Assembly (NCBI RefSeq): GCF_024362365.1
Contig: NZ_CP101464.1
Coordinates: 1,364,001 to 1,428,000, forward strand
Direction of reading: 5' to 3'
Source of the DNA: Janibacter sp. CX7
GTDB taxonomy: Bacteria; Actinomycetota; Actinomycetes; Actinomycetales; Dermatophilaceae
Length of the DNA: 64,000 nt
Shown here: in pieces, positions 4,328-62,471 of the stretch
Layout: each line of letters begins with the position of its first letter
How positions within the stretch are numbered: the first letter of the stretch is position 1
Translations under genes and position numbers: made by a program
Notes under the pieces: generated by a model
The model's input: only the letters and a program-made list of their open reading frames with translations
What the model was told of the DNA's origin: nothing
Databases searched by the model: none

Positions 4328-4379
4328 CCTCCCTTCGTCCTGCAGGTGGACGGGTCGCCGGTGCGGTGGCGGCTCGACC

Positions 4380-4385
4380 TATCCT
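4380..4385 (+). promoter_or_regulatory. -10 box of a leaderless promoter for the DAHP synthase gene
   Basis: TATCCT ends 6 nt before the GTG at 4392, so transcription would begin at or next to the start codon. No Shine-Dalgarno sequence is present. The same geometry recurs before at least eleven other genes in this window. Confidence 0.5.
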
Positions 4386-4391
4386 TGGGTG

Positions 4392-5744: not shown

Positions 5745-5782
5745 GCCCTCTCGTCCGTCCTGCCGAAGACCGGGCCGCCCGC

Positions 5783-5889
5783 CGAAGGGTGGGGTCGACG
5801 CTGGGGAAAAGTCCGGACCGCTTGGTCTGCCTCTCACGGGGCGCAGGCAGTCCGGACTTTTCCTTGATTCGCGTCGACCCCACCCTTCG
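5783..5889. repeat. 107-nt three-part inverted repeat downstream of aroG
   Basis: Arms CGAAGGGTGGGGTCGACGC (5783-5801) and its exact reverse complement (5871-5889) enclose a second perfect pair, AAAGTCCGGA-type (5807-5817 with 5851-5861), and an inner CTGCC/GGCAG pair (5827-5831 with 5846-5850). The outer arm ends in the CGAAGGG/CCCTTCG word found throughout the window. As RNA it would be a long, very stable stem 39 nt after the aroG stop. It could be a strong terminator, a structured non-coding RNA or a MITE-like insertion. No protein-coding content is visible. Confidence 0.75.
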
Positions 5890-5925
5890 TCGTGCTGGCG
5901 GCGGCGCCCCCTTCGTCGTGCTGAT

Positions 5926-6016
5926 GGTTGTGTGTTGAACCGGGATTTCAGCGAGCCGGCGGCGCTCACCGGGCGCTGCCGGCACCCGGCGCTACCGGTT
6001 GACCACACAACACAAC
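5926..6016. repeat. second long imperfect inverted repeat, adjacent to the first
   Basis: The left arm GGTTGTGTGTTGAACCGGG (5926-5944) pairs imperfectly with ACCGGTTGACCACACAACAC and following bases (5994-6016). Inside, GCCGGCGGCGC (5955-5965) pairs with GCGCTGCCGGC (5973-5983). Copies of CCCTTCGTC flank it at 5909-5917 and 6030-6038. Its function is unknown. It lies between aroG and the sulfonate leader in a region with no gene. Confidence 0.6.
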
Positions 6017-6121: not shown

Positions 6122-6139
6122 TCTGCGTAGGTTTGTCAT

Positions 6140-6384: not shown

Positions 6385-6393
6385 CCTGAACCC

Positions 6394-9007: not shown

Positions 9008-9883
9008 ATGAGCACCGCGACCCTGTCCCAGCCCACCACGGCACCGGCGGAGGCGCCCCCTTCGTCCACCGTGACCGTTTCCGAGGCGCCGAGCCGCACC
9101 CAGCGGGTGGTCTCTGCGCTGCGCACCGGCGTGCGCCGCTCGGCGGCCGTCGTGCTCTTCCTCCTGCTGTGGGAGTTCGGCACGCAGTACCTGCTCGAGC
9201 CGACCCGCAAGGTCTTCCTGCCGCCGCTGCACGTCGTGCTCGGCGCGCTGTGGGACCTCGCGCGCACCGGTCAGCTGCAGGAGCACCTGCAGGCGAGCCT
9301 CACCCGATCGGTCGTCGGCTTCGGCCTGGCCGTCGTCGCCGGGGTCGTCCTCGGCATCGCCGTCGCCTGGTACGACGGGTTGCGCGAGGTGCTGACGCCG
9401 CTGCTCGAGCTCTTCCGCAACACCGCGGCCCTGGCCCTGCTGCCGGTCTTCACGCTGCTCCTGGGCATCGGTGAGCTGAGCAAGGTGTCGATCGTCGCCT
9501 TCGCGGCCTTCTTCCCCGTGCTGCTCAACACCGTTGCCGGTGTGCGCACCGTCGACCCGCTGCTGGTGCGGGCCGCGCGGACCCTCGGGCTGTCCAACCT
9601 GCAGCTCTTCGTCAAGGTCGTGCTCCCGTCGGCCGTGCCGACGATCTTCACCGGCATCCGGATGGCCGGCACCGCCTCGATCCTCGTGCTCATCGCCGCG
9701 GAGATGGTCGGCGCCAAGGCCGGCCTGGGCTACCTCATCGTCAACGCCCAGAGCAGCTTCCAGATCCCGCAGATGTACGCCGGGATCCTCACGGTCTCGG
9801 TCTTCGGCCTCGTCGTCAACATCGCGCTCGTGCGCCTGGAGCGTCACTTCTCGGCCTGGCGCACCACGCCCACCGGCAGCTGA
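9008..9883 (+). CDS. ssuC: aliphatic sulfonate ABC transporter permease
   Basis: A 291-residue integral membrane protein with about six helices. It contains the BPD_transp_1 EAA-loop ARTLGLSNLQLFVKVVLPSA followed by a helix with GIRMAGTASILVLIAAEMVG, as in SsuC/TauC. The ATG directly abuts the ssuB TGA. The N-terminal 35 residues are a low-complexity Ala/Pro/Ser tail that hosts an exact CCCCCTTCGTC (9056-9066) read as P-P-S-S, not P-F-V. That suggests the word, not the peptide, is being kept. Confidence 0.92.
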   Translation: MSTATLSQPTTAPAEAPPSSTVTVSEAPSRTQRVVSALRTGVRRSAAVVLFLLLWEFGTQYLLEPTRKVFLPPLHVVLGALWDLARTGQLQEHLQASLTRSVVGFGLAVVAGVVLGIAVAWYDGLREVLTPLLELFRNTAALALLPVFTLLLGIGELSKVSIVAFAAFFPVLLNTVAGVRTVDPLLVRAARTLGLSNLQLFVKVVLPSAVPTIFTGIRMAGTASILVLIAAEMVGAKAGLGYLIVNAQSSFQIPQMYAGILTVSVFGLVVNIALVRLERHFSAWRTTPTGS

Positions 9884-9915: not shown

Positions 9916-11274
9916 ATGACCACGCAACGCCAGCTCCACCTCAATGCCTTCATCATGCCCAACGGCCACCACGAGGCCGCCTGGCGGCATCCCTCGGCCG
10001 ATCCCGTGCGGGCGCGGACCCTGCAGCACTACGTCGACATCGCGCGCACCGCCGAGCGCGGTCGCCTCGACTCGGTCTTCCTCGCCGACGTCGTCGGGCT
10101 TCCCGACAACGTGCGGCACAACTCGCACTCGGGCTTCGAGCCGCTGACCCTGCTCTCCGCGCTCGCCGCGAGCACCGAGCACGTCGGGCTCATCGCGACG
10201 GCCTCGACGACCTACAACCACCCCTACACGCTGGCGCGGGCCTTCGCCTCGCTCGACCACCTGAGCGGCGGGCGCGCCGGGTGGAACATCGTCACCTCCG
10301 GGTCGACGGTCGAGGCGGGCAACTTCGGCATCGAGCGTCCCGACCACGACCGGCGCTACGCGCGGGCCGAGGAGTTCGTCCAGGTCGTCGCCGCGCTCTG
10401 GGACAGCTTCGGCGACGGCGCGATCGTCGCTGATGCGGCGGGCGGGACCTATGCCGACACCGACCGGATCTCGCCGATCGACCACCACGGCGAGTTCTTC
10501 GACGTGGCCGGCCCGCTCAACGTGCCGCGACCGGTCCAGGGCTACCCGCTGCTCGTCCAAGCCGGGTCGTCCGAGGCGGGCAAGGCCTATGCCGCGCAGT
10601 ACGCCGAGGCGGTCTTCACCGCCCAGCAGACCTTGCAGGACGGCATCGACTTCTCCGACGACCTCAAGCGTCGACTGGCGCAGCACGGCCGCTCCCGCGA
10701 CGAGCTGCTCGTGCTGCCCGGCATCAGCCCGATCATCGGGTCGACGCAGGAGGAGGCGCAGCGGCTCGAGGCCGAGATCAACGCCGGCATCGTCCCGGCC
10801 TACGGCCTGGCCCAGCTGAGCGCGATGCTCGACGTCGAGCTGACCGAGGAGCACCTCGACGCGCCGCTGCCGCACGTCGAGCGCATCACCCAGGGCAACC
10901 AGAGCCGCTTCACCCTCGTCACCGAGCTCGCCCGTCGCGAGGACCTGACGGTGCGCCAGCTCATCGAGCGACTCGCCGGCGGCCGGGGGCACCGCGTGCT
11001 CGCCGGCACGCCCGAGCAGATCGCCGAAGACCTCGAGACGTGGTTCACCCAGGGGGCGGCCGACGGCTTCAACATCATGCCGCCGACCTACCCCCAGGGC
11101 CTCGAGGTCTTCGTCGACACCGTCGTGCCGATCCTGCAGGAGCGGGGCCTCTTCCGCCGCGAGTACACGGGCACGACCCTGCGCGAGCACTACGGTCTCG
11201 CCCGCCCGGCGGCCGGCCACATCAGCAGCACCCACCCCACCAGCACGTCCACCACGAAGGAGCACGCAGCATGA
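9916..11274 (+). CDS. FMN-dependent LLM-class monooxygenase, NtaA/SnaA/DszA/SoxA type
   Basis: A 452-residue flavin monooxygenase using FMNH2 from SsuE and O2. Recognisable family stretches are LNAFIMPNGHHEAAWRHP at the N-terminus, then FLADVVGLPDNV, LSALAASTEHVGLIATASTT, GRAGWNIVTS and PLLVQAGSSEAGKAYAAQYA. The sequence belongs to the longer NtaA/SnaA/DszA branch and not to the about 380-residue SsuD. The substrate may therefore be a sulfone, sulfonate or sulfur ester rather than a simple alkanesulfonate (inference). Its operon position after an ssuEABC set argues for C-S bond cleavage. It begins 32 nt after ssuC and overlaps the dioxygenase gene by 4 bp. Confidence 0.88.
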   Translation: MTTQRQLHLNAFIMPNGHHEAAWRHPSADPVRARTLQHYVDIARTAERGRLDSVFLADVVGLPDNVRHNSHSGFEPLTLLSALAASTEHVGLIATASTTYNHPYTLARAFASLDHLSGGRAGWNIVTSGSTVEAGNFGIERPDHDRRYARAEEFVQVVAALWDSFGDGAIVADAAGGTYADTDRISPIDHHGEFFDVAGPLNVPRPVQGYPLLVQAGSSEAGKAYAAQYAEAVFTAQQTLQDGIDFSDDLKRRLAQHGRSRDELLVLPGISPIIGSTQEEAQRLEAEINAGIVPAYGLAQLSAMLDVELTEEHLDAPLPHVERITQGNQSRFTLVTELARREDLTVRQLIERLAGGRGHRVLAGTPEQIAEDLETWFTQGAADGFNIMPPTYPQGLEVFVDTVVPILQERGLFRREYTGTTLREHYGLARPAAGHISSTHPTSTSTTKEHAA

Positions 11275-12179
11275 GCACCGCACCCATCCGCGACATCCGC
11301 AAGATCACCGGCCGGATCGGCGCCGAGGTCGTCGGCGTCGACATCACCGCCCCGCTCGACGAGCCGACCCTGCGCTTCGTCCGCGAGGCCCTCGACGAGC
11401 ACAAGGCGCTCGTCTTCAGGGGCGCGCCGCTCGACGGCGAGGGCCAGCAGCGCTTCGCCGCCCAGCTCGGCGAGCTGACGACGGCCCACCCGACGGTCGC
11501 CTCGGTCGAGGGCGCTCCGCGCGTCCTGCCGGTCGCCTCGGAGACCTTCGGCGGGTCCGCGGCCAACCACTGGCACACCGACGTCACCTTCGTCCAGGCG
11601 CCCCCGGCCTACACGACCCTGTCGAGCAAGGTCGTGCCGCCGCACGGCGGCGAGACCCTCATCTCCAACACGGCCGCGGCCTACCGCGACCTGCCCGAGC
11701 CGCTGCGGCGCCTTGCCGACGGCCTGTGGGCCGTGCACACCAACGACTACGACTACGCGACGCCGCCGGAGGAGCACGACGACGCGCTCAAGGAGCGCCG
11801 GGCCGAGTTCACCTCGCAGACCTTCGAGACCGAGCACCCGGTCGTGCGGGTCCACCCGCGCACGGGGGAGCGCGGCCTCTACCTCGGTGGCTTCGTCTCC
11901 CGCTTCGTCGGGCTGTCGAAGACCGAGAGCCGGGACATCCTGCGCCTGCTCCAGAGCTATGTCACCCGCCCGGAAAATGTCGTCCGGGTCGTCTGGGAGC
12001 CCGACCAGCTGGTGATCTTCGACAACCAGATCACCCAGCACTACGCCCCGGACAACTACGACGGCCTGCCCCGCCGGCTCGAGCGGGTCACCGTCGCCGG
12101 TGAGGTCCCGGTCGGCATCGACGGCGAGCGCAGCCGGTCGATCACGGGTGACGCCTCGCACTACGCGCCGGCGGTCTGA
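11271..12179 (+). CDS. TauD/TfdA-family Fe(II)/2-oxoglutarate dioxygenase
   Basis: A 302-residue non-haem iron dioxygenase. The facial triad is visible as H102 and D104 in NHWHTDVTF and H257 in DNQITQHYAPDNYD. R268/R269 just downstream would hold 2-oxoglutarate. Family members desulfonate taurine and alkylsulfonates or cleave sulfate esters and aryloxyalkanoates. In this operon a sulfonate or sulfate-ester role is likely. ATG overlaps the monooxygenase stop (ATGA). The gene ends the operon and is convergent with pknL; a CCCCCTTCGTC word sits right after its stop (12181-12191). Confidence 0.9.
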   Translation: MSTAPIRDIRKITGRIGAEVVGVDITAPLDEPTLRFVREALDEHKALVFRGAPLDGEGQQRFAAQLGELTTAHPTVASVEGAPRVLPVASETFGGSAANHWHTDVTFVQAPPAYTTLSSKVVPPHGGETLISNTAAAYRDLPEPLRRLADGLWAVHTNDYDYATPPEEHDDALKERRAEFTSQTFETEHPVVRVHPRTGERGLYLGGFVSRFVGLSKTESRDILRLLQSYVTRPENVVRVVWEPDQLVIFDNQITQHYAPDNYDGLPRRLERVTVAGEVPVGIDGERSRSITGDASHYAPAV

Positions 12180-12189
12180 CCCCCCTTCG

Positions 12190-14136
12190 TCAGACGACGA
12201 GGATCGTGACCGTCGAGCCCTTGGGGGCGGTGCCGCCGCTCGGGCGCGAGGCGCGCACCTCGTCGAGCGGCCCGCCGAGGAAGGTCTGGACCGAGACCTT
12301 GAAGCCCGCCGCCTGCAGCTTGCTCGTCGCCGCAGAGCGGCTCAGGCCCTCGACCGACGGGACGGCGACCATCTCCGGGCCCTTGGAGACGGTGATCGTC
12401 ACCGTCTCACCGGGAAGGAGGGTGCCGCTGCTGGGGGACTGGCTGATGACCGAACCCTTGGGCACGGTCGTCGAGTAGGCGTCGTCGGCGCGGGTGGCCT
12501 CGAGCCCGGCCTTCTCGATCGCGGTCGTCGCGGCCTCGGCGCCCTGCCCCGTCACCGTCGGCACGGCCACCGGCTCGGGGCCCTTGGAGACGACGAGGGA
12601 GACCTTGGCGTCGCGCTTGACCTCGGTGCCCGCGGCCGGCGAGGTCGAGACGATCTCGCCGGCCGGCACCTCGTCGTCGTAGGCCTCGGTCGTCGTGCCG
12701 AGCGCCAGGTGGCGGGAGCCGAGCGAGGTCCTGGCCTGCGCTGCGGTGCGGCCCGCCAGGTCGGGGACCTCGTAGCGCTCGGGACCCTTGGACACGACGA
12801 CGGTGACGTCGGACCCCTTCGACAGCTCGGTGCCGACCGGCGGGTTGGACGTGATGACCTCGCCCTTGGGCACCTGCTCGTCGAAGGCCGTGGACTCGAC
12901 GTAGGACAGGTCGCCGTCCTGCGTGACGCTGGCCTCGGCGTCGGCGCGGGAGAGGCCGGTGACGTCGGGGACGAGGACCGTGCTGCCGGGCCCCTCCTGC
13001 GTCCACCACCAGCCGCCGCCGACGGCGAGCGCGGCGACGAGCAGGAGTGCGGCAAGGGCTGCCGGCCACCGCTTCCGGGTCGAAGGGAGGTCCGCTGCGG
13101 TCGTCGAGGCACCGCCTCCGGCAGCACCGCCGCCGTCGCCGGTCCGGATCGCCTGGGTCCGCTCGGGGCGCGGGTGCGCGACGGTCGCGGCCGCGCCACC
13201 ACGTGCGGCGCCACCTCGTGACGTGCGGTCGCTGCCGTCGCCCCCGTCGGAGGGTGCGACCTGCGGCCGCCGGTCCAGCTCCTGGGCCGACAGGCCGGCG
13301 CGCACGCGCTGCAGCTCGGCGAGGTAGGCGCCCGCGTCGCGCGGACGCTCATCGGGGTCGCGGGCGGTGGCCAGCGCGACGAGGTCGTCGAGCTCGGGCG
13401 GCAGGTCGGCCACCCGCTCCGACGGCAGCGGCACCGACCCGTGCACGTGCTGGAAGGCGACATGGATCGGCGACTCGCCGTCGACCGCGCGACGGCCCGT
13501 GAGCAGCTCGAAGAGGATCAGCCCGCACGCGTAGACGTCGCTGCGGGCATCGGCGATGCCGCGCTCGACCTGCTCGGGGGAGAGGTAGGCGACGGTGCCG
13601 AAGAGCACCCCGTCCTCGGCGGTCGTCGTCTGCGAGGTGACCGCCCGGGCCAGGCCGAAGTCGGCGACCTTGATGGCGCCCCGGTCGGGGATGAGGATGT
13701 TCTCGGGCTTGACGTCGCGGTGGATGTAGCCGGCCTCGTGGGCCGCGGCCAGCCCGGTGAGCACGGGCTCGAGGACGTCGAGCGCGGCGCGGACGGTGAG
13801 CGCGCCCTCGGCGTCGACCACGGCGCGCGCGGTGCGGCCCTCGACGTACTCCATGGCGAGGAAGACCTGACCGCCGTCCTCGCCCTGGTCGAAGACGGGC
13901 ACGACGTTGGGGTGGCTCAGCCGTGCGGCCGAGCGGGCCTCACGACGAAACCTGGAGACGAAGGTCTCGTCCGCCGCGAGGTCGGGACGCATGACCTTGA
14001 GCGCGACCTCGCGGTCGAGCCGGGTGTCGGTCGCGAGCAGCACCGTGGCCATCCCGCCGTCGGCGAGGTGCCGCAGCACGCGGTAGCGACCGTCGACGAG
14101 GTCGCCGACGAGCGGGTGCGTGGATGCGGTGGTCAC
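12190..14136 (-). CDS. pknL: Ser/Thr protein kinase with four PASTA repeats (PknL type)
   Basis: A 648-residue membrane kinase. The kinase domain (about 18-280) has a glycine loop LADGGMATV, catalytic K47 in VALKVM, HRD (139-141), DFG at 159-161 and an SPEQ P+1 region. A low-complexity linker follows, then one transmembrane helix (WPAALAALLLVAALAVGGGW, about 350-370) and four extracellular PASTA domains with repeated VSKGPE ends, which bind peptidoglycan or muropeptides. GTG 14136 is chosen because a TAGACT box lies 6 nt upstream; a TTG two codons earlier is the alternative. Neighbouring aroG, the Rv2175c-like gene and idsA2 identify it as the PknL locus, which controls envelope and cell-division functions. 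Confidence 0.9.
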   Translation of the reverse strand: MTTASTHPLVGDLVDGRYRVLRHLADGGMATVLLATDTRLDREVALKVMRPDLAADETFVSRFRREARSAARLSHPNVVPVFDQGEDGGQVFLAMEYVEGRTARAVVDAEGALTVRAALDVLEPVLTGLAAAHEAGYIHRDVKPENILIPDRGAIKVADFGLARAVTSQTTTAEDGVLFGTVAYLSPEQVERGIADARSDVYACGLILFELLTGRRAVDGESPIHVAFQHVHGSVPLPSERVADLPPELDDLVALATARDPDERPRDAGAYLAELQRVRAGLSAQELDRRPQVAPSDGGDGSDRTSRGGAARGGAAATVAHPRPERTQAIRTGDGGGAAGGGASTTAADLPSTRKRWPAALAALLLVAALAVGGGWWWTQEGPGSTVLVPDVTGLSRADAEASVTQDGDLSYVESTAFDEQVPKGEVITSNPPVGTELSKGSDVTVVVSKGPERYEVPDLAGRTAAQARTSLGSRHLALGTTTEAYDDEVPAGEIVSTSPAAGTEVKRDAKVSLVVSKGPEPVAVPTVTGQGAEAATTAIEKAGLEATRADDAYSTTVPKGSVISQSPSSGTLLPGETVTITVSKGPEMVAVPSVEGLSRSAATSKLQAAGFKVSVQTFLGGPLDEVRASRPSGGTAPKGSTVTILVV

Positions 14137-14148: not shown

Positions 14149-14171
14149 GGTTCGCCCCCTTCGTCAGCCCG

Positions 14172-15395: not shown

Positions 15396-15507
15396 GTGAC
15401 TCGTGTGGCGTATGTGGTTTCGCTGGCGACGGTACCGAAGATCCGTGCCCGAGGCGGGATGAACGGCGTGGCGGGCCCCCTTCGTCGCTCGTGGCCGGGG
15501 CGGCTGA

Positions 15508-15901: not shown

Positions 15902-17044
15902 TCAGGTGGCGCGGGCCGTCGTCGCGTCGACGAGCTCGGCGAGCACCTCGCGGGCCTCGTCGGCGATGCCGGTGGCCTGCTCGAGCGCATCGCGTGCGAC
16001 CTGTGCGCCCTCGGCGATGTCGCGCTCGACGGCGTCGAGCGCACCCGTGGCGACGATGAGCTCGCGGAAGGCCTCGACCTCGTCGGTGCCCAGGTCCGGC
16101 GCGCCGAGCCACTGGTCGACCCGGGTCGCGGTGACGTCGTCGCCACCGGCGAGGGTGTGCGCGATGAGGACGGTGCGCTTGCCCTCGCGCAGGTCGTCGC
16201 CGGCGGGCTTGCCGGTGACCTCCGGGTCGCCGAAGACGCCGAGCACGTCGTCGCGCAGCTGGAAGGCCTCGCCGAGCGCCAGGCCGTAGCGGGAGAGGGC
16301 GGCGAGGTCGTCGGCGCTCGCGCCGCCGGCGGTCGCACCGATGAGCAGGGGGTGCTCGATGGAGTACTTCGCGCTCTTGTAGCGGATGACCTTGCGGGCC
16401 CACTCGATGCGCTCGTCGTCGGCGAGGTCGTGCCACGGGCGCATCGAGGTGACGATGTCGAGGAACTGCCCTCCCATGAGCTGGCCGCGCATCCGCTCGA
16501 AGACCGGACGGGCGGCGGCGAGGGCCGCGGTCGGCAGCCCGCTGTCGGCGTAGAGATCGTCGCACCAGCCGAGGCAGAGGTTGCCGGCGAGGATCGCGCC
16601 GGCGGTGCCGAAGCGCTCGGGGTCGCCGTGCCAGGCCCGCTCGGCGTGGGAGCGGGCGAGGGCGCGGTGCAGCGCCGGCTGGCCGCGTCGGGTCTCGCTG
16701 TCGTCCATGACGTCGTCGTGGATGAGCGCGGCGGCCTGGAAGAGCTCCATCGACGCCGCGAGGGTGATCGCCCCGTCGTCGTCGGGCTGCCCGGCGGCCC
16801 GCCAGCCCCAGTAGGCGAAGCCGGCGCGCAGCCGCTTGCCGCCCTGCAGCAGGCTACGGACGGGGGTGGTCAGGTCGACGACGTCGGGCCCGATCTCGGC
16901 GAGCTCGCCGCCCCAGCGGTCGAGCTCGGTGTCGATGCGGGCCTGGACGCGCGAGCGCAGGTCGGCGCGGTCCAGCGGGTGCGGCACGGGGGCTCCAGTG
17001 ACGAAGGGGGCGGGGCGGGTGTCGGTGGTCCGTGGTCGGATCAC
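15902..17044 (-). CDS. idsA: polyprenyl (geranylgeranyl-type) diphosphate synthase
   Basis: A 380-residue trans-prenyltransferase that elongates isoprenoid diphosphates with isopentenyl diphosphate. The first Asp-rich motif is IHDDVMDDSETRRG and the second is LRDDVLGVFGDPEVTGK. GGKRLRAGF, RGQLMGGQ and the KSAKYSIEHPLLIG segment are also present. The length and motif type fit mycobacterial IdsA-like short or medium chain (C20) synthases. The gene corresponds to idsA2 (Rv2173) in the conserved locus. It begins with GTG about 75 bp from the divergent LexA box; a TAGGCT box lies 12 nt upstream. The product could feed quinone, carotenoid or polyprenyl-phosphate synthesis. Confidence 0.9.
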   Translation of the reverse strand: MIRPRTTDTRPAPFVTGAPVPHPLDRADLRSRVQARIDTELDRWGGELAEIGPDVVDLTTPVRSLLQGGKRLRAGFAYWGWRAAGQPDDDGAITLAASMELFQAAALIHDDVMDDSETRRGQPALHRALARSHAERAWHGDPERFGTAGAILAGNLCLGWCDDLYADSGLPTAALAAARPVFERMRGQLMGGQFLDIVTSMRPWHDLADDERIEWARKVIRYKSAKYSIEHPLLIGATAGGASADDLAALSRYGLALGEAFQLRDDVLGVFGDPEVTGKPAGDDLREGKRTVLIAHTLAGGDDVTATRVDQWLGAPDLGTDEVEAFRELIVATGALDAVERDIAEGAQVARDALEQATGIADEAREVLAELVDATTARAT

Positions 17045-17472: not shown

Positions 17473-17982
17473 ATGGCTGCCGTCCCCGTCCTGCACCCCG
17501 AGCGCCTCGACGCCGCGCTCGACCTGCTCGCCGCCGCCGGCGAGAGTCTCGCGACCGCGCACATGGCCCGCACCGTCGCCGGGCGCAGCGCCGGCACCAA
17601 GCTCGCCGTGCTGCGGGCGGCCGCCGCGGTCCTCACCGTCCGGGGGAGGCCCGCCCCGGCGGAGTCGCCCGGGCACGGCGCCGGTGGGACCACCCGTGGC
17701 CCGGTCGACGTGTGGCGCCTGCTGCCGCGGGTCGCGCCCGAGCTGACCGAGTGGGCCGACTTCTTCGCGACCGTCCTGCCCGAGGGCGGCGCCCGCCCCG
17801 GCGTCGGGGCGGCCGGGCCGATGAGCGTGCGCGAGGTCGACGACCTGCTGCGCCAGGGCGAGGACTTCGTGCGGATCGCGGCGGGCACCCTCGGGCTGCC
17901 CCCGGTCCGGGTCACCGCCGACCTCGTCGCCATCCCCCCGTCGCACGACCTCGAGGACATGCGAAGGGGGGAGGCCGGGTGA
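17473..17982 (+). CDS. SAV_6107-family HEPN domain protein
   Basis: A 169-residue largely helical protein. The segment LDLLAAAGESLATAHMARTV, the following KLAVLRAAAAVL and VWRLLPRVAPELTEWADFF with SVREVDDLLRQGEDFV match the SAV_6107 HEPN family, regularly found before dnaE2 or dinB in actinobacteria. HEPN folds include ribonucleases and nucleotide binders, but I do not see a clear Rx4-6H catalytic motif. The function is therefore open; a polymerase accessory role (in the position of ImuA-prime) is inferred from context. The C-terminus (MRRGEAG) holds a CGAAGGGGG word and overlaps the dnaE2 GTG by 4 bp. Confidence 0.8.
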   Translation: MAAVPVLHPERLDAALDLLAAAGESLATAHMARTVAGRSAGTKLAVLRAAAAVLTVRGRPAPAESPGHGAGGTTRGPVDVWRLLPRVAPELTEWADFFATVLPEGGARPGVGAAGPMSVREVDDLLRQGEDFVRIAAGTLGLPPVRVTADLVAIPPSHDLEDMRRGEAG

Positions 17983-20900
17983 GCTTCGCCCACCTGCACG
18001 TGGCGTCGGGCTTCTCCCTTCGTCATGGCACGACGACACCGGAGGACCTCGTGGCCCGGGCCGCGGAGCTCGGGCAGCCGGCGCTCGCCCTCACCGACCG
18101 CGACGGGCTCTACGGGGCGGTGCGGTTCGTCCGGGCGGCGACCGCCGCAGGCATCGCGCCGGTGCTCGGGGTCGACCTCGCCGTCGACGGCGGGGGCCGG
18201 GCCCCGGCAGGTGCCCGACGCACCCCGGTGCGCGGCGGTGCGCAGGTCGACCCGCGCCACCCCCGGGTCACCGTGCTCGCCCGTGGTGCCGGCGCCGGGG
18301 TGCCGCACGGGGTCGGCTGGGCACGGCTGTGCCGGCTCGTCAGCGAGGTGCACCTCACGGGGGAGCGCGGCGAGGCCGTGGCGACCGCGGCGATGATCGC
18401 CCGGCACGCCGCTTCGCCCGGACCCGACGAGCCCGCGCCGCTCCTCGTCCTGCTCGGCCCGACCTCCGACGTCGGCGCCGCGCTGCTCGCCCGCCGGCCC
18501 GACCTCGCCCGCGAGCGGCTGCGCGCCTGGCAGCGGCTGCTGCCGCCGGGCGCCATGGCGATCGAGGTCGTCGACCACGGCGGCCCGCCGGGCACACCGG
18601 CCTCGACCGGGCACGCGGCCCACCTGCTCGGGCTCGCCGATGCCTGCGGGGTCCCGGCCGTGCTCACCGCCGCCGTGCGGCACCTGCACCCGCAGGACGC
18701 GGCGACCGCCGACGTCCTCGACGCGACCCGCCGCCTCGTCGTCCTCGACACCCGCCACCTCGACCGGGTGACGACGGCCGGGCACCTCGCCGACGACGCG
18801 ACGATGGCCGCGCGCGCCGAGCGGGTCGCGGCCGTCCTCGGCGGGGGTGCCGGTGGCTTCGCCTGCGCCAGCCCCCGGCAGCGGGCCGCGGCGCTGCTCG
18901 AGGAGACGGCCCGCACGGCGATGGCGTGCGCGCTCGACGACCGCCGCGACCTCGGCATCGGCCGGGTGCACCTGCCCGAGGCGCGCGTCCTCGGGCTGCG
19001 CCCCGACGAGGACCCGCAGGCGGTGCTCGCGCAGCGCTGCCGGGCGGCCATCGGCGAGCGCTACCCCGACGCGTCGCCGGCGGTGCTGCGGCAGGTGGAG
19101 GAGCGTCTGGCCGACGAGCTCGACGTCGTCGAGGCGCTGGGCTACCCGACCTACTTCCTCACCGTCGCCGAGGTCGTCGACATCATCACCGGCGCGGGGG
19201 TGCGGGTCGCCGCCCGTGGCTCCGGCGCCGGCAGCCTGGTCAACCACCTGCTCGGCATCAGCGCGATCGACCCGATCCGGCACGACCTGCTCATGGAGCG
19301 CTTCTGCTCGCCGCTGCGGGCCGAGCTGCCCGACATCGACATCGACGTCGAGTCGGCCCGCCGCACCGAGATGTATGAGCTGATCCTGCAGCGCTTCGGC
19401 CGCGACCGGGTGACGTGCGTGTCGATGATGGACACCTACAAGGCGCGGCACGCGATCCGCGACGTCGGCGCCGCGCTCGGCGTGCCGCCGGCCGAGGTCG
19501 ACGAGATCGCCAAGGCCTTCCCGCACATCCGGGCCAAGGACGTGCGTTCGGCGATGGCCGAGCTGCCCGAGCTGCGCACCCGCAGCCTCGACGGCGGGCG
19601 CCTCACGACGCTCTTCGACCTCGTCGAGCGGCTCGACGGGCTGCCCCGGCACATCGCCCTGCACCCGTGCGGGGTGGTCCTGTCCGACGGCGGGCTGCTC
19701 GACCGCACCCCGGTCGAGTCGAGCTGGCTGGGCTTCCCGATGAGCCAGTTCGACAAGGACGACGTCGAGGCGCTCGGGCTGCTCAAGCTCGACGTCCTCG
19801 GCATCCGGATGCAGTCGGCGATGGCGCACGCCGTCGGCGAGGTCGAGCGGGTCACGGGGGAGCGGGTCGACCTCGACGACCGGTCCGACGTGCCCCTCGA
19901 CGACCCGGCGACCTTCGCGATGATCCGCACGACCCGCACCCTCGGGTGCTTCCAGATCGAGAGCCCCGGGCAGCGCGAGCTCATCGGCAAGCTCGCGCCG
20001 ACCGTCTTCGACGACCTGATCATCGACATCTCGCTCTTCCGCCCCGGTCCGGTGAAGTCCGACATGATCCGGCCCTTCCTCGAGGCGCGGCACGGGTGGA
20101 GCCGGCCGCAGTTCCTCCACGACCGGCTCGTGCCCGCGCTCGCCGAGACCGAGGGGGTCGTCGTCTTCCACGAGCAGATGCTGCGGATCATCGCCGAGAC
20201 GACCGGCGCGACCCTCGCCCAGGCCGACGAGGTGCGCCGCACGATGGGCAGCCCGCAGGGGCAGGAGCGCATCGAGGCGTGGTGGCGCCCGGCGGCCGCG
20301 GCCCGCGGCTACCCGCCGGAGGACGTCGACCGCATCTGGGAGGTGCTCGCGGCCTTCGCCTCCTTCGGCTTCTGCAAGGCGCACGCGGCGGCCTTCGCCA
20401 TGCCGACCTACCAGTCGGCCTGGCTCAAGGCGCACCACCCTGCGGCCTTCCTCGCCGGCGTGCTCACCCACGACCCGGGCATGTACCCCAAGCGGCTGCT
20501 CCTCGAGGAGGCCCGCTCGCTCGGCGTGACGATCCTCGGCGTCGACGTCAACGCGAGCACGGGGGAGTACCGCGTCGAGCGCGCGCCCGTCCCCGGCCGG
20601 GTGCCGGACGACCCCGACCTGCCCGACGGGTCGCCGTGGGCGATCCGGCTCTCGCTGGCGGATGTCAAGGGCATGAGCGAAGGGGAGATCGCCCACGTCG
20701 TCGCCGGGGCCCCCTTCGACTCGCTCACCGACTTCTGGCAGCGGGCCCGGGTGAGCCGGCCGGTCGTCGAGCGGCTCGTCCTCGTCGGGGCCTTCGACTC
20801 CGTCCACGGCACCGGCGCCGACCGCGGTGGGCCGGGGCTCGGCCACAGGGGGCGGCTGACCCGACGCGACCTGCTGCTCCACGTCGCCGAGCTCGACCGG

Positions 20901-21737
20901 TGGTCCCGGGCGACGGCGACCGGGCGCTCCCGGGGGCGGGGCGCCGGTGGCCGGGGCGCGCGGGGGCGGTCGTCCGAGGCGCCGGCCTGGGCCGCGGGGC
21001 GACCCGGGGCGCAGCAGGTGCGCACGAGCACGACGCCGACCCCGGTCGCGAGCCAGCTGACCCTCGACCTCGGTGACTCTCCGGAGCTCGGTGAGGGCGT
21101 CGGCCTGCCCGAGATGAGCGTCCCCGACCAGGTGGGCGCCGAGCTGGAGATTCTCGGGCTCGACGCCTCGCGGCACGTCATGGACTTCTACGCGCCGATG
21201 CTCGAGGCGCTCGGGGTGACCCGCAGCGCCGACCTGCTCTCGGTGCGCAGCGGTGCCCAGATCCTCGCCGCGGGGGTCAAGGTCGCGACCCAGACCCCGC
21301 CGATCCGCTCCGGGCGTCGGGTCGTCTTCCTCACCGTCGACGACGCGACCGGGCCGGTCGACGCGACCTTCTTCGAGGACGTGCAGGGGCCCTACGCGGC
21401 GACGATCTTCCACTCGTGGCTGCTGCTCGTGCGCGGCACGATCCGGCGCGCGGGGCCGCGCGGGGTCTCGGTGCTCGCCTCCGGCGCGTGGGAGCTGTCG
21501 ACGCTGTGGGAGGCCTGGCAACGCGGCGGCATCACCGCCGTGCACGCCGCGCTCGACGAGGCCGACGACCTCGCCCGCGCCCGCGACGCCGCGCACCAGC
21601 AGCCTGCCGGGCACCGGGTGCTCGTCCACGCGTCGGGCTTCCGCCAGTCGCCGTGGGCCGACACCCGCCCCGCCGGCACCGGCGTCGAGCCCCCGCGCAA
21701 GCTGTGGCACTCCTCGCCCGGCAGCTCGGGCCACTGA
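17979..21737 (+). CDS. dnaE2: error-prone DNA polymerase III alpha subunit
   Basis: A 1252-residue C-family polymerase. The PHP domain is N-terminal (FAHLHVASGFSLRHGTTTPE). The polymerase palm carries the catalytic aspartates in ELPDIDIDVESARR and later FDDLIIDISLFRPGPVKSDM. YPTYFLTVAEVVDIITGAGV, RGSGAGSLVNHLLGIS and FASFGFCKAHAAAFAMPTYQ are DnaE2 hallmarks. A C-terminal OB region (SGRRVVFLTVDDATGPVDATFFED) completes it. DnaE2 does mutagenic translesion synthesis with ImuA-prime/ImuB in mycobacteria. No ImuB is encoded here; dinB lies 1.4 kb downstream instead. Start GTG 17979 overlaps the HEPN stop. Confidence 0.95.
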   Translation: MSFAHLHVASGFSLRHGTTTPEDLVARAAELGQPALALTDRDGLYGAVRFVRAATAAGIAPVLGVDLAVDGGGRAPAGARRTPVRGGAQVDPRHPRVTVLARGAGAGVPHGVGWARLCRLVSEVHLTGERGEAVATAAMIARHAASPGPDEPAPLLVLLGPTSDVGAALLARRPDLARERLRAWQRLLPPGAMAIEVVDHGGPPGTPASTGHAAHLLGLADACGVPAVLTAAVRHLHPQDAATADVLDATRRLVVLDTRHLDRVTTAGHLADDATMAARAERVAAVLGGGAGGFACASPRQRAAALLEETARTAMACALDDRRDLGIGRVHLPEARVLGLRPDEDPQAVLAQRCRAAIGERYPDASPAVLRQVEERLADELDVVEALGYPTYFLTVAEVVDIITGAGVRVAARGSGAGSLVNHLLGISAIDPIRHDLLMERFCSPLRAELPDIDIDVESARRTEMYELILQRFGRDRVTCVSMMDTYKARHAIRDVGAALGVPPAEVDEIAKAFPHIRAKDVRSAMAELPELRTRSLDGGRLTTLFDLVERLDGLPRHIALHPCGVVLSDGGLLDRTPVESSWLGFPMSQFDKDDVEALGLLKLDVLGIRMQSAMAHAVGEVERVTGERVDLDDRSDVPLDDPATFAMIRTTRTLGCFQIESPGQRELIGKLAPTVFDDLIIDISLFRPGPVKSDMIRPFLEARHGWSRPQFLHDRLVPALAETEGVVVFHEQMLRIIAETTGATLAQADEVRRTMGSPQGQERIEAWWRPAAAARGYPPEDVDRIWEVLAAFASFGFCKAHAAAFAMPTYQSAWLKAHHPAAFLAGVLTHDPGMYPKRLLLEEARSLGVTILGVDVNASTGEYRVERAPVPGRVPDDPDLPDGSPWAIRLSLADVKGMSEGEIAHVVAGAPFDSLTDFWQRARVSRPVVERLVLVGAFDSVHGTGADRGGPGLGHRGRLTRRDLLLHVAELDRWSRATATGRSRGRGAGGRGARGRSSEAPAWAAGRPGAQQVRTSTTPTPVASQLTLDLGDSPELGEGVGLPEMSVPDQVGAELEILGLDASRHVMDFYAPMLEALGVTRSADLLSVRSGAQILAAGVKVATQTPPIRSGRRVVFLTVDDATGPVDATFFEDVQGPYAATIFHSWLLLVRGTIRRAGPRGVSVLASGAWELSTLWEAWQRGGITAVHAALDEADDLARARDAAHQQPAGHRVLVHASGFRQSPWADTRPAGTGVEPPRKLWHSSPGSSGH

Positions 21738-21775
21738 GGGGCGTCGACCGGCCGGGGCGGGTCCCCCTTCGTCCG

Positions 21776-23135: not shown

Positions 23136-24404
23136 ATGAGCCGGCGTCAGTACCGGCCCCCACCGCGGGCCGGCCAGGGCCCCCCGGACGACACCGGGTG
23201 CACGATCCTGCACGTCGACATGGATGCCTTCTTCGCGTCCGCCTCCCTCATCGCCCACCCCGAGCTCGTCGGCACCCCCGTCATCATCGGTGGCGGCAAC
23301 CGCGGCGTCGTGCTCTCCGCGACCTACGAGGCCCGGGCCTTCGGGGTCACCTCGGCGATGCCGATGGGCCGTGCCCGGCGGCTGTGCCCGCAGGCGACGG
23401 TCCTGCCACCCGAGCACGAGCTCTACTCGCGCATCTCCTCGGCCATCATGGCGACCTTCGCCGACATCACCCCCTTCGTCGAGCCGCTGAGCAGCGACGA
23501 GGCCTTTCTCGACGTCGCCGGAGCCGTGCGCCTCATGGGCTCGCCGGCGACGATCGCCCAGCGCATCCGCGACACCGTCGCCGACGAGCAGGGGATCACC
23601 TGCTCCGTCGGGGTCGCGAGCACGAAGTTCGTCGCCAAGCTCGCCTCCGGCCTCGCCAAGCCCGACGGGCTGCTCGTCATCCCCGCCGACGAGGTCGTCA
23701 CCTTCGTCCAGCAGCTGCCCGTCGGCGCCCTGTGGGGCGTGGGGGACAAGACCGAGGAGGCCCTCGCCAGGCTGGGCCTGAAGACCGTCGCCGACATCGC
23801 CCACACCCCGCGCCAGACCCTGGTCCGCGCCCTCGGCGAGGCCACCGGCAACCACCTCCACGACCTCGCCTGGGGCCGCGACCACCGCTCCGTCGAGCCG
23901 GTGCGCCGCGAGCGGTCCATCGGCAACGAGCGCACCTACGACCACGACGTCGACGACCCCGTCGTCGTCCACCGCACCCTGCTCGCCCTGAGCGACAAGG
24001 TCGCCTCCCGGCTGCGGGGCGCCGGCCTCGTCGGCCGCACCGTGAGCATCAAGGTGCGCTTCGCCGACTTCACGACGATCACGCGCTCCCGCTCCCTTCG
24101 CGATGCCACCGACGTCTCCCGCGACATCGCCGCGCTGGCCCGTGAGCTCTACGACGCCCTCGGCCTGCAGCGGGCCCGGGTCCGGCTCGTCGGCGTGCGG
24201 GTCGAGCAGCTCTCCGAGGCCGCGTCGACCCCGGTCCAGGTCGCTCTCGACGAGCCCGAGCACGGCTGGCGCGAGGCCGACCGGGCCGTCGACCGGGCGA
24301 GCGCGCGCTTCGGCGCGGGCAGCGTGCGCCCGGCGAGCCTGCTCGGCGATCGCAGCCGACGGCAGTCCCCACCTACCGCGGGCCCCGGACGCGACCTATC
24401 ATGA
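23136..24404 (+). CDS. dinB: Y-family DNA polymerase IV
   Basis: A 422-residue translesion polymerase. Catalytic motifs are HVDMDAFFASASL near residue 26 and LSSDEAFLDVAGAVRL. YEARAFGVTSAMPM, CSVGVASTKFVAKLAS and the helix-hairpin-helix PVGALWGVGDKTEEALARLG complete the core, and a little-finger domain follows (VSIKVRFADFTTITRSRSLR). It lacks an obvious C-terminal QLxLF-type beta-clamp motif; the nearest candidate is QVALDEP. No LexA box lies immediately upstream, unlike dnaE2. It begins 7 nt after the methyltransferase. Confidence 0.95.
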   Translation: MSRRQYRPPPRAGQGPPDDTGCTILHVDMDAFFASASLIAHPELVGTPVIIGGGNRGVVLSATYEARAFGVTSAMPMGRARRLCPQATVLPPEHELYSRISSAIMATFADITPFVEPLSSDEAFLDVAGAVRLMGSPATIAQRIRDTVADEQGITCSVGVASTKFVAKLASGLAKPDGLLVIPADEVVTFVQQLPVGALWGVGDKTEEALARLGLKTVADIAHTPRQTLVRALGEATGNHLHDLAWGRDHRSVEPVRRERSIGNERTYDHDVDDPVVVHRTLLALSDKVASRLRGAGLVGRTVSIKVRFADFTTITRSRSLRDATDVSRDIAALARELYDALGLQRARVRLVGVRVEQLSEAASTPVQVALDEPEHGWREADRAVDRASARFGAGSVRPASLLGDRSRRQSPPTAGPGRDLS

Positions 24405-25951: not shown

Positions 25952-28087
<2,136 letters not shown>

Positions 28088-29681: not shown

Positions 29682-29723
29682 CGAAGGGGGCGACACCGGC
29701 GATCCGGTGCCGCCCCCTTCGTC
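29682..29723. terminator. bidirectional terminator built from the CCCCCTTCGTC word
   Basis: CGAAGGGGGCG (29682-29692) pairs with CGCCCCCTTCG (29711-29721), and ACCGG pairs with CCGGT around CGAT. The terminator separates the convergent permease and parC genes. Its right arm contains an exact CCCCCTTCGTC. Confidence 0.85.
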
Positions 29724-37464: not shown

Positions 37465-37582
37465 AACTCCGCACAACCCTAGGGTTTTGCAGGGTTGAGA
37501 GGGCGAGCCCCGAACTCTGCAAGACCCTCGGGTTGTGCAGAGTTAGCAGGGGCCGTGCACAGCCCTGGGGTTGTGCAGAGTT
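37465..37582. repeat. three copies of a 32-bp palindromic repeat
   Basis: Copies are at 37465-37496, 37513-37544 and 37551-37582. Each has the form AACTCTGCAAGACCCT followed by its near reverse complement AGGGTTTTGCAGAGTT, with no loop. The third keeps only the right half well. Start-to-start spacing is 48 and 38 nt. Two more copies lie behind acnA (51484-51557). The array fills the gap between the convergent tdk and sepH genes. Confidence 0.8.
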
Positions 37583-38951: not shown

Positions 38952-39043
38952 CAACAATCCCTCTCGTCTTCGTGCTCGGCACGACTCTGCCACCTGCCGC
39001 GCCCGATCCGGTGACGCACACGCCGCGGGGTTACCTTGTGTCC

Positions 39044-43749: not shown

Positions 43750-43777
43750 GACGAAGGGGAGGGACCTCCCCTTCGTC
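43750..43777. terminator. bidirectional terminator built from the CCCTTCGTC word
   Basis: GACGAAGGGGAGG and CCTCCCCTTCGTC form a 13-bp perfect stem with almost no loop, between the convergent DUF3159 and ceoC genes. Both arms are copies of the window-wide word in opposite orientation. Confidence 0.85.
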
Positions 43778-51420: not shown

Positions 51421-51462
51421 CGAAGGGGGGTGGCCACCTAGGGGTGGTGACCCCCCTTCGTC
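51421..51462. terminator. acnA terminator built from the CCCCCTTCGTC word
   Basis: CGAAGGGGGGT (51421-51431) pairs with ACCCCCCTTCG (51450-51460), and CCACC pairs with GGTGG inside. The right arm extends to an exact CCCCCTTCGTC (51452-51462). It lies 15 nt after the acnA stop. Confidence 0.85.
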
Positions 51463-54012: not shown

Positions 54013-54039
54013 GACGAAGGGGGCGGGACCCCCTTCGTC
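54013..54039. terminator. dxs terminator built from two exact CCCCCTTCGTC copies
   Basis: GACGAAGGGGG (54013-54023), loop CGGGA and CCCCCTTCGTC (54029-54039) form an 11-bp perfect stem 11 nt after the dxs stop. It is the cleanest example of an inverted pair of the word. The 150 nt that follow, up to livK, hold no gene; I see no clear promoter there. Confidence 0.9.
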
Positions 54040-59793: not shown

Positions 59794-61662
59794 TCAGCGG
59801 CTCTCGAGCAGTCGTCGCATGCGCAGGGCGAGCTGGATCTCCAGCGCGCGGTCGGGGTGCTGCCAGTCGTCCCCGAGCAGGGCGGAGACCCGAGCCAGTC
59901 GTTGCGCCACGGTGTTGACGTGGACGTGCAGCTCGCCGGCCGCGTGGCGCGGGCTCGAGCCGGCGGCGAAGTAGGCCACGAGGGTGCCGACGAGGTCGCT
60001 GCCCCGCTCCGCGTCGTAGTGCAGGACCGGACCGAGGACCGACTGGACGTAGTCGTGGACGTCGGGGTCGGAGCCGACGATGAGGCCGGCGAAGCCGAGC
60101 TCACGGGCCGCGGCGCCCGTGCCCGAGCGCCCCAGGGCGATGAGCGCGCCGGCGGTCCGGGCGCCGTCCTCGAAGGCCCGGGGGAGGTCGTCGACGTCGG
60201 TCAGCGGGCCGCAGCCGCCGACGGTCAGTCGGGGTCCGCGGGTGACGCGCTCGGCGAGCGAACGGGCGAGGTGGTCGGCGTCGTCGCCCCCGACGAGGGC
60301 GACGATCGCGCCGTCGTGCGTGCCGACGAGCGAGCCCTCGCCGAGGAGCGTGCTCACGGTGAGGGCCAGCGCGCGCTGCTGCGTGGGGTCGCCGCCCCGG
60401 GCGACGAGGAGGCACATCGGCTCGCGCGGCTCGAGGCCGGCCGAGCGCAGGTAGCCGGTCCGTTCCTCGTGGCTGCCGCGACCGCTCAGCAGGTCGGCGA
60501 GCAGTCGGTTGCGGGCGGTCTGGCGGGCGTCGTCGGCCTGGCGCTCGAAGAGCAGGACGAGGGCGGTGACGACTGCGGCCCGCTCCACCGTGCGCTGGTC
60601 GGCCTCCTCGAGGGTGCCCGGGGCACCGACGACGAGGGTGCCGAGCTCCTCGTGCGAGGCGATGACGCCGATGGCGTGCACCCCGTCCTCCTCGACGAGT
60701 CGCCCGGCCTCGTGCCGCGCGCGGTCGACGACGGGCAGCGAGAGGAGCGCGTCCCGGTCCCCGTCGGGGGCCGGCGCCGGCCCGAGGGTGCTGCGCCGCT
60801 CGCCGGTGCCGTCGAAGAGCACCGCCCACCCACCGAGCAGGTCGACGAGGGCCCGCGTGACGTCGGCGACGCCACCGCCCTCGAGCACGACGGAGGCGAA
60901 GCGGTCGTGGGCCGCCGCGGCGCGCGCGACACCGGTGGCCTGCTGCCGGACGGTCTCGTGCGCCTCGGTGAGGGCGGCGAAGGCCGTCTGCGCGTCGGCG
61001 AGCGCACGGGTCTGGACGATGGCCAGGGCGGCGAAGGCCGCGAGGTCGCCGAGGAGGACGACCTCGGACCGGGAGAAGGGGCGCGGGCTGCGGTTGGCCG
61101 CGAAGAGCACCCCGACGAAGTTGGACTCGACGATGAGCGGGGTGCCGCAGATGGCGATGATGCCCTCGTCGCCGACCCCGTGGTCGATCTCGTGGGTGTG
61201 GCTGAAGCGCTCGTCGGCGGGGTAGTCGGCCGTCCAGTAGGGCTTGCGGGTCGAGGCGACGAGCCCGCCGAGGCCGTCGCCGAGAGAGAGCCGCAGCGAC
61301 TGGAAGTCCGCGGACACCGAGCCGTCGGTGACCTTCATGAAGGTGTCGCCGGCCTCGGGGTCGTAGAGCGTCAGGTAGGCCAGGTCGGTGCCGATGAGGG
61401 TGCGGGCCCGCCGCACGATGGCCTCGAGGACGACCTCGGGTTCCTTCTCGGTCGACAGCTCGCGGGCGATGTCGAGCAGCGAGGACTGCGCCGACTCCCG
61501 TCGCCGGTGCAGCTCGCGGGTGGCTCCGATGCGCAGGGCGAGGTCGCGGGCCCGCTCGGGGGCCGGCGCGTCGGCGAGCTGGTCCACCGGGGCGTCTGCG
61601 GCGAGCAGCTCGAGCAGGTGCACCACCTGCTCGGTCTGCTCGTGATCCTCGGTGCCCGACAT
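59794..61662 (-). CDS. GAF-domain PucR/CdaR-family transcriptional regulator
   Basis: A 622-residue cytoplasmic regulator. An N-terminal helical part is followed by a GAF domain (about 70-215; LIGTDLAYLTLYDPEAGDTF, GDEGIIAICGTPLIVESNFV, VLFAANRSPRPFSRSEVVLL). A degenerate GGDEF-like central region comes next, then a C-terminal PucR helix-turn-helix (YFAAGSSPRHAAGELHVHVN, TVAQRLARVSALLGDDWQ). ATG 61662 is chosen because TAGGAT lies exactly 7 nt upstream. Such regulators often activate adjacent catabolic genes; hbdH and gntP lie directly upstream, and the liv operon is convergent. Small-molecule sensing by the GAF domain is inferred. Confidence 0.88.
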   Translation of the reverse strand: MSGTEDHEQTEQVVHLLELLAADAPVDQLADAPAPERARDLALRIGATRELHRRRESAQSSLLDIARELSTEKEPEVVLEAIVRRARTLIGTDLAYLTLYDPEAGDTFMKVTDGSVSADFQSLRLSLGDGLGGLVASTRKPYWTADYPADERFSHTHEIDHGVGDEGIIAICGTPLIVESNFVGVLFAANRSPRPFSRSEVVLLGDLAAFAALAIVQTRALADAQTAFAALTEAHETVRQQATGVARAAAAHDRFASVVLEGGGVADVTRALVDLLGGWAVLFDGTGERRSTLGPAPAPDGDRDALLSLPVVDRARHEAGRLVEEDGVHAIGVIASHEELGTLVVGAPGTLEEADQRTVERAAVVTALVLLFERQADDARQTARNRLLADLLSGRGSHEERTGYLRSAGLEPREPMCLLVARGGDPTQQRALALTVSTLLGEGSLVGTHDGAIVALVGGDDADHLARSLAERVTRGPRLTVGGCGPLTDVDDLPRAFEDGARTAGALIALGRSGTGAAARELGFAGLIVGSDPDVHDYVQSVLGPVLHYDAERGSDLVGTLVAYFAAGSSPRHAAGELHVHVNTVAQRLARVSALLGDDWQHPDRALEIQLALRMRRLLESR

Positions 61663-61688
61663 GGCCTGCATCCTAGGTACGCGGCCGC

Positions 61689-62471
61689 TCAGTGTGCGGT
61701 CCAGCCCCCGTCGACCGGCAGCGAGGACCCCGTGATGCTCGTGGCGGCGGGGGAGCAGAGGAAGAGCGCCATCGCGGCCACCTCGTCCACCTCGACGAGA
61801 CGCTTGATCGCGACCGGTCCGAGCATGATCTGCTCGAGGACCTCCTCCTCGGCGATGCCGTGGGTGCGGGCCTGGTCGGCCACCTGCTTCTCCACGAGCG
61901 GGGTGCGCACGTAGGCGGGGTTGAGGCAGTTGCTCGTCACGCCGTGGGCAGCGCCCTCAAGGGCCACGACCTTGCTCAGCCCCTCGAGCCCGTGCTTCGC
62001 CGAGACGTAGGCCGACTTGTAGGCGCTGGCTCGCAGGCCGTGGACGCTCGAGACATTGATGATCCGGCCCCAGCCCTGGGCGTACATGTGCGGCAGGACC
62101 GACCGGATGAGCCTGAAGGGGGACTGGAGCATCAACCTGTGGATGAGGTCGAACTTCTCGACCGGGAACTCGTGGACCGGGCTGACGTGCTGGATGCCGG
62201 CGTTGTTGACGAGGACGTCGACGTCCTCGGGCAGGTCGGCCAGCCCGTCGAGGTCGGCGAGGTCGACGGCCCGGGTCTCCACGGCCAGGTCGGGCAGCCC
62301 GCCGGCCAGGGAGGTCAGACCCCCTTCGTCGAGGTCGACCGCGGTGACGCGCGCCCCTGCGGCAGCGAAGCTCGCGACGCAGGCGGCGCCGATCCCGCTC
62401 GCGGCGCCGGTGACGAGGACGTGACGACCGGTGAGGTCGGTGAGGAGTGCGGACTCGGGCTGCTGGCTCAT
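61689..62471 (-). CDS. hbdH: 3-hydroxybutyrate dehydrogenase (SDR family)
   Basis: A 260-residue NAD-dependent short-chain dehydrogenase. The cofactor motif is VLVTGAASGIGAACVASF, with VNNAGIQHVSPVHEFPVEKF, catalytic Ser in INVSSVHGLRASAYKSAYVS, and Tyr/Lys in SAYVSAKHGLEGL. The IQHVSPVHEFP and RTPLVEKQVADQARTHGI stretches distinguish 3-hydroxybutyrate dehydrogenases, which oxidise 3-hydroxybutyrate to acetoacetate. ATG 62471 has a TACCTT box 7 nt upstream (leaderless). It is divergent from a GntP permease, a common pairing for 3-hydroxybutyrate use. An exact CCCCCTTCGTC (62330-62340) is read antisense as D-E-G. Confidence 0.9.
   Translation of the reverse strand: MSQQPESALLTDLTGRHVLVTGAASGIGAACVASFAAAGARVTAVDLDEGGLTSLAGGLPDLAVETRAVDLADLDGLADLPEDVDVLVNNAGIQHVSPVHEFPVEKFDLIHRLMLQSPFRLIRSVLPHMYAQGWGRIINVSSVHGLRASAYKSAYVSAKHGLEGLSKVVALEGAAHGVTSNCLNPAYVRTPLVEKQVADQARTHGIAEEEVLEQIMLGPVAIKRLVEVDEVAAMALFLCSPAATSITGSSLPVDGGWTAH

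Follow-up and report, generated by a model that had tools for sequence, protein, structure and literature searches.

The 64 kb stretch of Janibacter sp. CX7 DNA analysed here (the window, taken from a single-contig genome of 3,229,343 bases) is crowded with copies of one short word, CCCCCTTCGTC in its 11-base form, with the core CCCCCTTCG. This word is probably the Janibacter dialect of a DNA uptake sequence (DUS) system. Somewhat less securely, comparison across the family argues for an unrecognised, family-wide actinobacterial uptake-sequence system, which would be read by a Flp/Tad pilus, would have at least four dialects on a CGNC core (CCCCCTTCGNC, CGBCATAC, CGNCGTAC and CGGCATCC) with switches inside genera, and would be disabled by mobile elements through serine-recombinase integration into the pilus ATPase gene. 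The strongest arguments for uptake are the largely exclusive dialects, the switch of dialect within a genus and the depletion of the words in mobile DNA.

The window contains 26 exact copies of the 9-mer CCCTTCGTC (20 on the forward strand, 6 on the reverse) against 0.86 in dinucleotide shuffles, and 15 exact 11-mers against 0.03. The counts of 26 and 15 are those given by the first-pass annotation, which was made by eye; it also listed the 11-mer starts, 14 of 15 correctly, the last being 62320 and not 62330, and its estimate of about 34 further sites keeping CCCTTCG or CGAAGGG is close to the 35 that we found beyond the 26 (61 in all). The 20:6 strand bias is local to the window, since the whole genome has 281 exact 11-mers on each strand and none of the reversed control. 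The core occurs 1,860 times in the 3.23 Mb genome, or 576 times per Mb, with 948 copies on one strand and 912 on the other. In an 864 kb sample, made up of 40 stretches of 20 kb from the same genome plus the window, 522 cores were counted against 35.5 expected from an order-4 Markov model, and 164 11-mers against 3.4 (order 3) and 5.6 (order 4), so that the Markov comparison proposed in the first pass leaves the word far above expectation at both orders. The 11-mer expectation rises to 33 at order 5 and 89 at order 6, against the 164 seen, because a model of that order, trained on the same DNA, holds most of the word.

The consensus in this sample is YYCCCTTCGNC. Position 10 is T in 164 copies, C in 164, G in 38 and A in 32, and T is accepted at position 1 (36 copies) and position 2 (47 copies), whereas at positions 5 and 7-9 each variant was seen only 0-3 times, against 164 exact copies. 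The 11-mer first described is therefore real and was too narrowly defined, position 10 being free and T being tolerated at positions 1 and 2. No flanking consensus was found outside the 11-mer in the sample, and the flanks have a weak three-base periodicity, as codons would give. An interspersed repeat of the repetitive extragenic palindrome or miniature inverted-repeat transposable element type was rejected, as there is no conserved unit longer than the 11-mer and 358 of the 522 copies are genic.

The range of the word was followed in a family survey of 149 genomes from 53 genera. The core reaches 1,265-1,939 copies in all 12 genomes of Janibacter (g1) and of the genus holding J. melonis (g59), and stands at background in the remaining 137, that is, in 51 other genera; in a set of 58 relatives, all 15 same-genus genomes are rich in the 11-mer (83-293 copies per strand), and the others have 0-7 per strand. 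De novo word finding in the sister genome G018 led to a different word, CGBCATAC (B being G, T or C), at 1,350 copies per Mb against 9.3 in Janibacter. In the G018 sample it has 54 copies per strand, 84 of the 108 in genes, and no marked flank. With a threshold of at least 600 copies and at least three times the reversed control, CGBCATAC passes in 79 family genomes; the reversed control is also elevated in these (740 in G018), probably through overlap with the word, as the control starts with CATAC, and the ratio is thus conservative. Two more words, CGNCGTAC and CGGCATCC, emerged from 40-kb samples of genera with neither of these words and pass threshold in 11 and 7 of the 149 genomes, respectively, with thousands of copies. 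Of the 149 genomes, 107 have one or more of the four words and only G080 and G114 have two, so that by these thresholds, all chosen once the counts were known, the four are nearly mutually exclusive. By eye, CGNC is common to all four.

Dialects can also differ between members of one genus. In genus g47, G105 has 8,164 copies of CGNCGTAC and 55 of CGBCATAC, whereas its congeners G062 and G131 have 1,185 and 3,776 of CGBCATAC and no marked excess of CGNCGTAC (1,579 against a control of 837, and 698 against 772). In g65, G137 and G151 are richer in CGGCATCC and poorer in CGBCATAC than G080 and G114. Therefore, dialects change within genera. In the samples, the other dialects have a similar strand balance and use several frames; their intergenic share is clearly raised for CGGCATCC (0.39 of copies in 0.13 of bases) and slightly for CGBCATAC (0.23 in 0.17).

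No comparably strong word was found in the samples of G016, G023, G025, G029, G034, G017, G024, G036 and G046. In G035 (L274-L275), CGCATAC, found 31 times in 40 kb where 4.3 copies are expected, is a possible fifth dialect. The G030 word AGCGGCATAC was rejected as a dialect, as it belongs to a mostly intergenic repeat of roughly 25 nt. This interspersed repeat surrounds CAGCGGCATACGG (L187-L191, L226-L231); there are 955 copies of AGCGGCATAC genome-wide, and 37 of 59 sampled AGCGGCATA copies are intergenic. G030 and G099, at 2.3- and 2.4-fold, are under the CGBCATAC threshold and were counted as wordless.

The first pass had also advised looking for com and pil genes. The genome of the window does have comEA (SLBB and HHH_3 domains), comEC and two tad loci, of which one is broken. 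A Flp cluster with a DUF4244 pilin was labelled tad-2; the second locus, tad-1, comprises TadA, TadB, TadC, Flp-like, TadE, TadF-like and TadG-like genes and adjoins, by resemblance, prfB-ftsE-ftsX. It is complete in G014, has six of seven genes in G005 (TadF-like was not called) and is partial in G018, and its TadA is full-length in 8 of the 9 Janibacter genomes sampled. With split or partial matches taken as present, and a best TadA match weaker than about 1e-88 as absent, all 38 word-bearing genera have tad-1 TadA by majority rule, while 6 of the 15 wordless genera are without it (p 2e-4); by genome, it is found in 103 of 107 word-bearing and 28 of 42 wordless ones (p 4e-6). The L050 Tad cluster was dropped as a candidate competence pilus, its close TadA relatives being sporadic in the family.

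In several genomes the tadA gene of tad-1 is split. Insertions in L242 and L244-L251, from several genera, interrupt this ATPase gene at comparable positions. Seven insertions were covered wholly or partly, and a large serine recombinase lies near a junction in six of them (G022, G065, G155, G168, G173 and G175; all seven proteins scanned matched); in the seventh, G166, none was evident in the list of open reading frames, the domain scan not having covered this genome. Mobile elements are known elsewhere to integrate into competence genes. In five insertions in CGBCATAC hosts, together 106 kb, 15 words were counted where genome density predicts 58.2, with the reversed control at 9 against 7.4; the G168 insertion alone is weakly depleted (7 against 10.4). 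The tad-1 locus of the window genome is interrupted by 9.3 kb of DNA encoding a C5 DNA methylase (L232:16606-17417 and L051:7739-8569; G000 2231606-2242569), and this island has no word where 7.6 are expected.

The first-pass annotation had offered, beside an uptake sequence, a chromosome tag, a loading site for FtsK/SpoIIIE and Chi. Its uptake-sequence reading agrees with the distribution of the word, the inverted pairs behind stop codons, the dialects, the depletion in mobile DNA and the association with the Flp pilus; the other three are not supported, as the strands are balanced on both chromosome halves and related genera use other words. With the origin assumed near coordinate 1, where another gyrB-type gene sits, the 864 kb sample gave, with bins summed, 140:129 and 134:119 on the two halves, hence no strand skew along the chromosome, and no long run of one-sided bins occurred anywhere along the series. 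A polar chromosome signal, whether an FtsK-orienting polar sequence (KOPS) as in E. coli, a SpoIIIE recognition sequence (SRS) as in Bacillus, or an architecture-imparting sequence, would likewise be a short word, dense and spread over the whole chromosome, and GACGAAGGGG is somewhat like the Bacillus word GAGAAGGG. Nevertheless, such a role is very improbable for a word that lacks skew by half and overall, stays at background in the other 51 family genera, many with words of their own, and is thus not conserved between relatives; on orientation skew, KOPS and SRS were rejected.

Placement was judged against gene calls from a simple codon-score script, not a standard annotator, which made 89.5% of the sample coding. 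Of the 522 cores, 149 are intergenic, 358 are in genes, 14 are at fragment ends and 1 is on an edge. The word is therefore not confined to terminators (such confinement would have told against a chromosome-tag role); at the same time, intergenic copies are enriched 2.7-fold (149 of 522 in 10.5% of the bases, p 3e-30). Within genes, all six classes of frame and orientation are used, and those encoding common residues (PF, AKG) are favoured. The in-gene density of the 8-mer climbs with gene GC from 0.39 to 0.84 per kb by quartile, with no such rise in the reversed control, which fits sparser words in atypical genes.

Copies within 60 nt of each other form 45 converging pairs in the 864 kb, against 16 diverging and 2 tandem. 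Called genes overlap 14 of the 45; the others are between converging (13), tandem (11) or diverging genes (5) or at fragment ends (2); the median distance from pair to stop is 15 nt (37 distances). Five converging pairs are in the window, and the four that were folded all gave strong hairpins. The word sites of the window are as follows.

5907-5917, forward strand: the 11-mer, intergenic.
9056-9066, forward strand: the 11-mer, within gene 9008-9883.
12181-12191, forward strand: the 11-mer right behind the stop codon of gene 11271-12179; the flanking genes converge, and the last two bases of the word overlap the next gene.
14155-14165, forward strand: the 11-mer, intergenic.
15476-15486, forward strand: the 11-mer, intergenic between diverging genes.
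17000-17010, reverse strand: the 11-mer, intergenic.
20678-20718, unstranded: converging pair of cores within gene 17979-21737, left out of the folding.
21763-21773, forward strand: the 11-mer, 25 nt past the stop of gene 17979-21737; the 8-mer is identical in 3 of 3 aligned relatives.
23470-23480, forward strand: the 11-mer in the DNA polymerase IV gene (23136-24404); the 8-mer is identical in 6 of 14 aligned relatives.
29682-29723, unstranded: converging word pair 11 nt past a stop; fold -39 kcal/mol, z -5.7; terminator-like.
35729-35739, forward strand: the 11-mer, within gene 35610-36770.
39330-39340, forward strand: the 11-mer, within gene 39038-40156.
43750-43777, unstranded: converging pair of CCCCTTCGTC, 5 nt past a stop; fold -32.1 kcal/mol, z -4.9.
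51421-51462, unstranded: converging word pair 15 nt past a stop; fold -47.1 kcal/mol, z -5.4.
54013-54039, unstranded: converging pair of full 11-mers, 11 nt past a stop; fold -34.2 kcal/mol, z -3.8.
62320-62330, forward strand: the 11-mer, within gene 61689-62471.

Given these 45 pairs, which outside genes are mostly just past stops, and given that a repeat element of such a kind exists in G030, it might be asked if the word is merely a favoured terminator stem or a small mobile repeat. As a whole explanation this was rejected and is highly unlikely, since at most 90 of 711 copies of the 8-mer sit in converging pairs, single copies have no conserved flank and most copies are within genes. Single pairs also occur in other genera, for example in Streptomyces (among 80 of 120 stretches listed), and these could be ordinary GC-rich terminators.

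A Chi-like site for a RecBCD, AddAB or AdnAB nuclease, protecting self DNA, would also be short and dense, and depletion in mobile DNA would suit such a self mark too. Chi varies between bacterial groups, and usually has a leading-strand bias. It is an improbable account of the Janibacter word, in which strand bias is lacking, the 15- to 30-fold enrichment over the order-4 model exceeds that usual for Chi, and there is a bias to intergenic sites and inverted pairs; moreover, changes of word within a genus would require repeated change of a core repair enzyme.

Conservation was sampled in orthologues of the gyrB region in 14 same-genus genomes, one 26 kb region with few sites. Across the seven intergenic sites, 27 of 44 alignments keep the copy unchanged, whereas control 8-mers matched for GC are identical in 12.8%. 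This conservation, like the sharp core with its near-invariant positions, would be compatible with a site bound by a nucleoid or regulatory protein that diverged from one genus to the next. Such a site is likewise improbable in view of about 1,900 copies, two thirds of the sampled ones in genes, in all frames and both orientations, and in view of the depletion in mobile DNA and the association with a pilus locus. Biased uptake with molecular drive accounts better than a chromosomal binding site for the largely exclusive dialects, which are one base apart, for the within-genus switch and for the mobile-DNA depletion.

Several observations weigh against uptake through a Flp/Tad pilus and against neat dialects. 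The copies in genes are just above controls in conservation (identical in 47 of 115 against 35%), and those of one frame are below (2 of 21 against 39%); therefore, intergenic copies are held, and in-gene copies change at about the rate of the sequence around them. Some CGBCATAC genomes have a moderate excess of CGGCATCC as well (G026: 827 against a control of 126), so how exclusive this word is depends on the threshold. G085, which is without tad-1, has CGNCGTAC at 3.1-fold over control and about 500 per Mb, just below threshold, and genus g2 has an intermediate level of this word, also just below. For CGNCGTAC the intergenic excess is little or absent, and the placement pattern is thus not strictly identical across dialects. 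The machinery is the weakest link, as tad-1 is apparently lost in the window genome and is kept in nine genera without any of the four words. In the window genome, TadA keeps residues 1-267, TadC only its last 18, and TadE and TadG are fused, and no match to TadB or TadF was found in the DNA searched (the tad-1 region and the 864 kb sample); its words may therefore be relics, yet it has the highest core count among the nine Janibacter genomes. No tad-1 TadA was seen in the word-bearing G074, G083, G122 (73% complete) and G127; ComEC is found in 57 of 58 relatives irrespective of words and does not discriminate; and the tests of the tad-1 association ignore shared ancestry.

That the word is read during uptake, and by which protein, we infer from these patterns. 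A Flp/Tad competence pilus (tad-1, with tad-2 and comEA/comEC) would carry a receptor that binds word-bearing DNA, perhaps a minor pilin of tad-1 (TadE, TadF-like or TadG-like), and this binding would lead to preferential uptake of self DNA. Biased uptake together with homologous recombination would spread the copies and maintain them by molecular drive. They would settle where sequence constraint permits, chiefly between genes, in any frame within them, and as inverted pairs reused as terminators, and a shift in receptor specificity would slowly rewrite a genome into a new dialect.

All the sequence-level traits of known uptake sequences that were examined are found for the Janibacter word: strong over-representation with hundreds to thousands of copies, presence on both strands without replichore skew, an excess between genes together with tolerance in several frames within them, inverted pairs able to serve as putative terminators (judged by folding), related dialects that track clades with a shared inner core, and depletion in newly acquired DNA. 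The DUS of Neisseriaceae is read by ComP (PMC3630211, PMC12616744, PMC6370729) and likewise has hundreds to thousands of copies, genic and intergenic sites, inverted pairs as terminators and conserved inner core, with dialects that follow clades and differ by as little as one base. Thinning in acquired islands, described for DUS and for the uptake signal sequence (USS) in PMC7371117, is common to both DUS and the Janibacter word. The differences are that the hosts here are Gram-positive Actinobacteria, that the words are unrelated in sequence, that uptake is here only inferred, and that the genes are those of Flp/Tad and not of type IVa pili (no search was aimed at ComP). The USS of Pasteurellaceae (PMC7811141, PMC12616744) is likewise a 9-mer-class word of high density, with two types and evolution by molecular drive. 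Both DUS and USS are located in terminators (PMC13020248, PMC12616744), and this use of USS (PMC13020248) has its likeness here; USS differs in having extended, less conserved flanks, none of which were seen around the Janibacter word, and belongs to another phylum.

In Micrococcus luteus, natural transformation depends on Flp/Tad, with comEA/comEC and two tad clusters (PMC4322843). Janibacter has the same kinds of genes, and tad-1 and tad-2 would correspond to these two clusters, judged by gene content. The term "uptake sequence" is absent from the main text of PMC4322843 and of PMC8467076. According to a 2020 paper (PMC7811141), a strong sequence preference in DNA uptake has been demonstrated for species of two families, Pasteurellaceae and Neisseriaceae. 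In literature searches, with preprints and most subscription papers outside their scope, no title among the matches listed reports such a system in this family, and no paper joins "Janibacter" and "DNA uptake"; a search by sequence string gave no on-topic title among the 20 of 424 matches listed.

Other elements were noticed as well. A 32-base near-palindromic repeat with the consensus AACTCTGCAAaACCCTAGGGTcTTGCAGAGTT lies at 37476 and 51537 of the window and has 40 copies in the 864 kb, 35 of them intergenic and some in close pairs; the relative G001 has a similar but distinct palindrome around TGCCCGGGCA. Window positions 25952-28087 hold a gene of the DNA gyrase/topoisomerase IV B type, and a separate one, 44% identical, is near the contig start.

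If the proposed system is real, it would be a third independent origin of uptake specificity, in Gram-positive Actinobacteria and with a different pilus, and how and why such specificity evolves would become testable by comparison. The four dialects and the switch within a genus provide ready-made comparisons with which the receptor could be sought and molecular drive tested. Moreover, competence in Actinobacteria, past or present, could then be read from the genome by such words.

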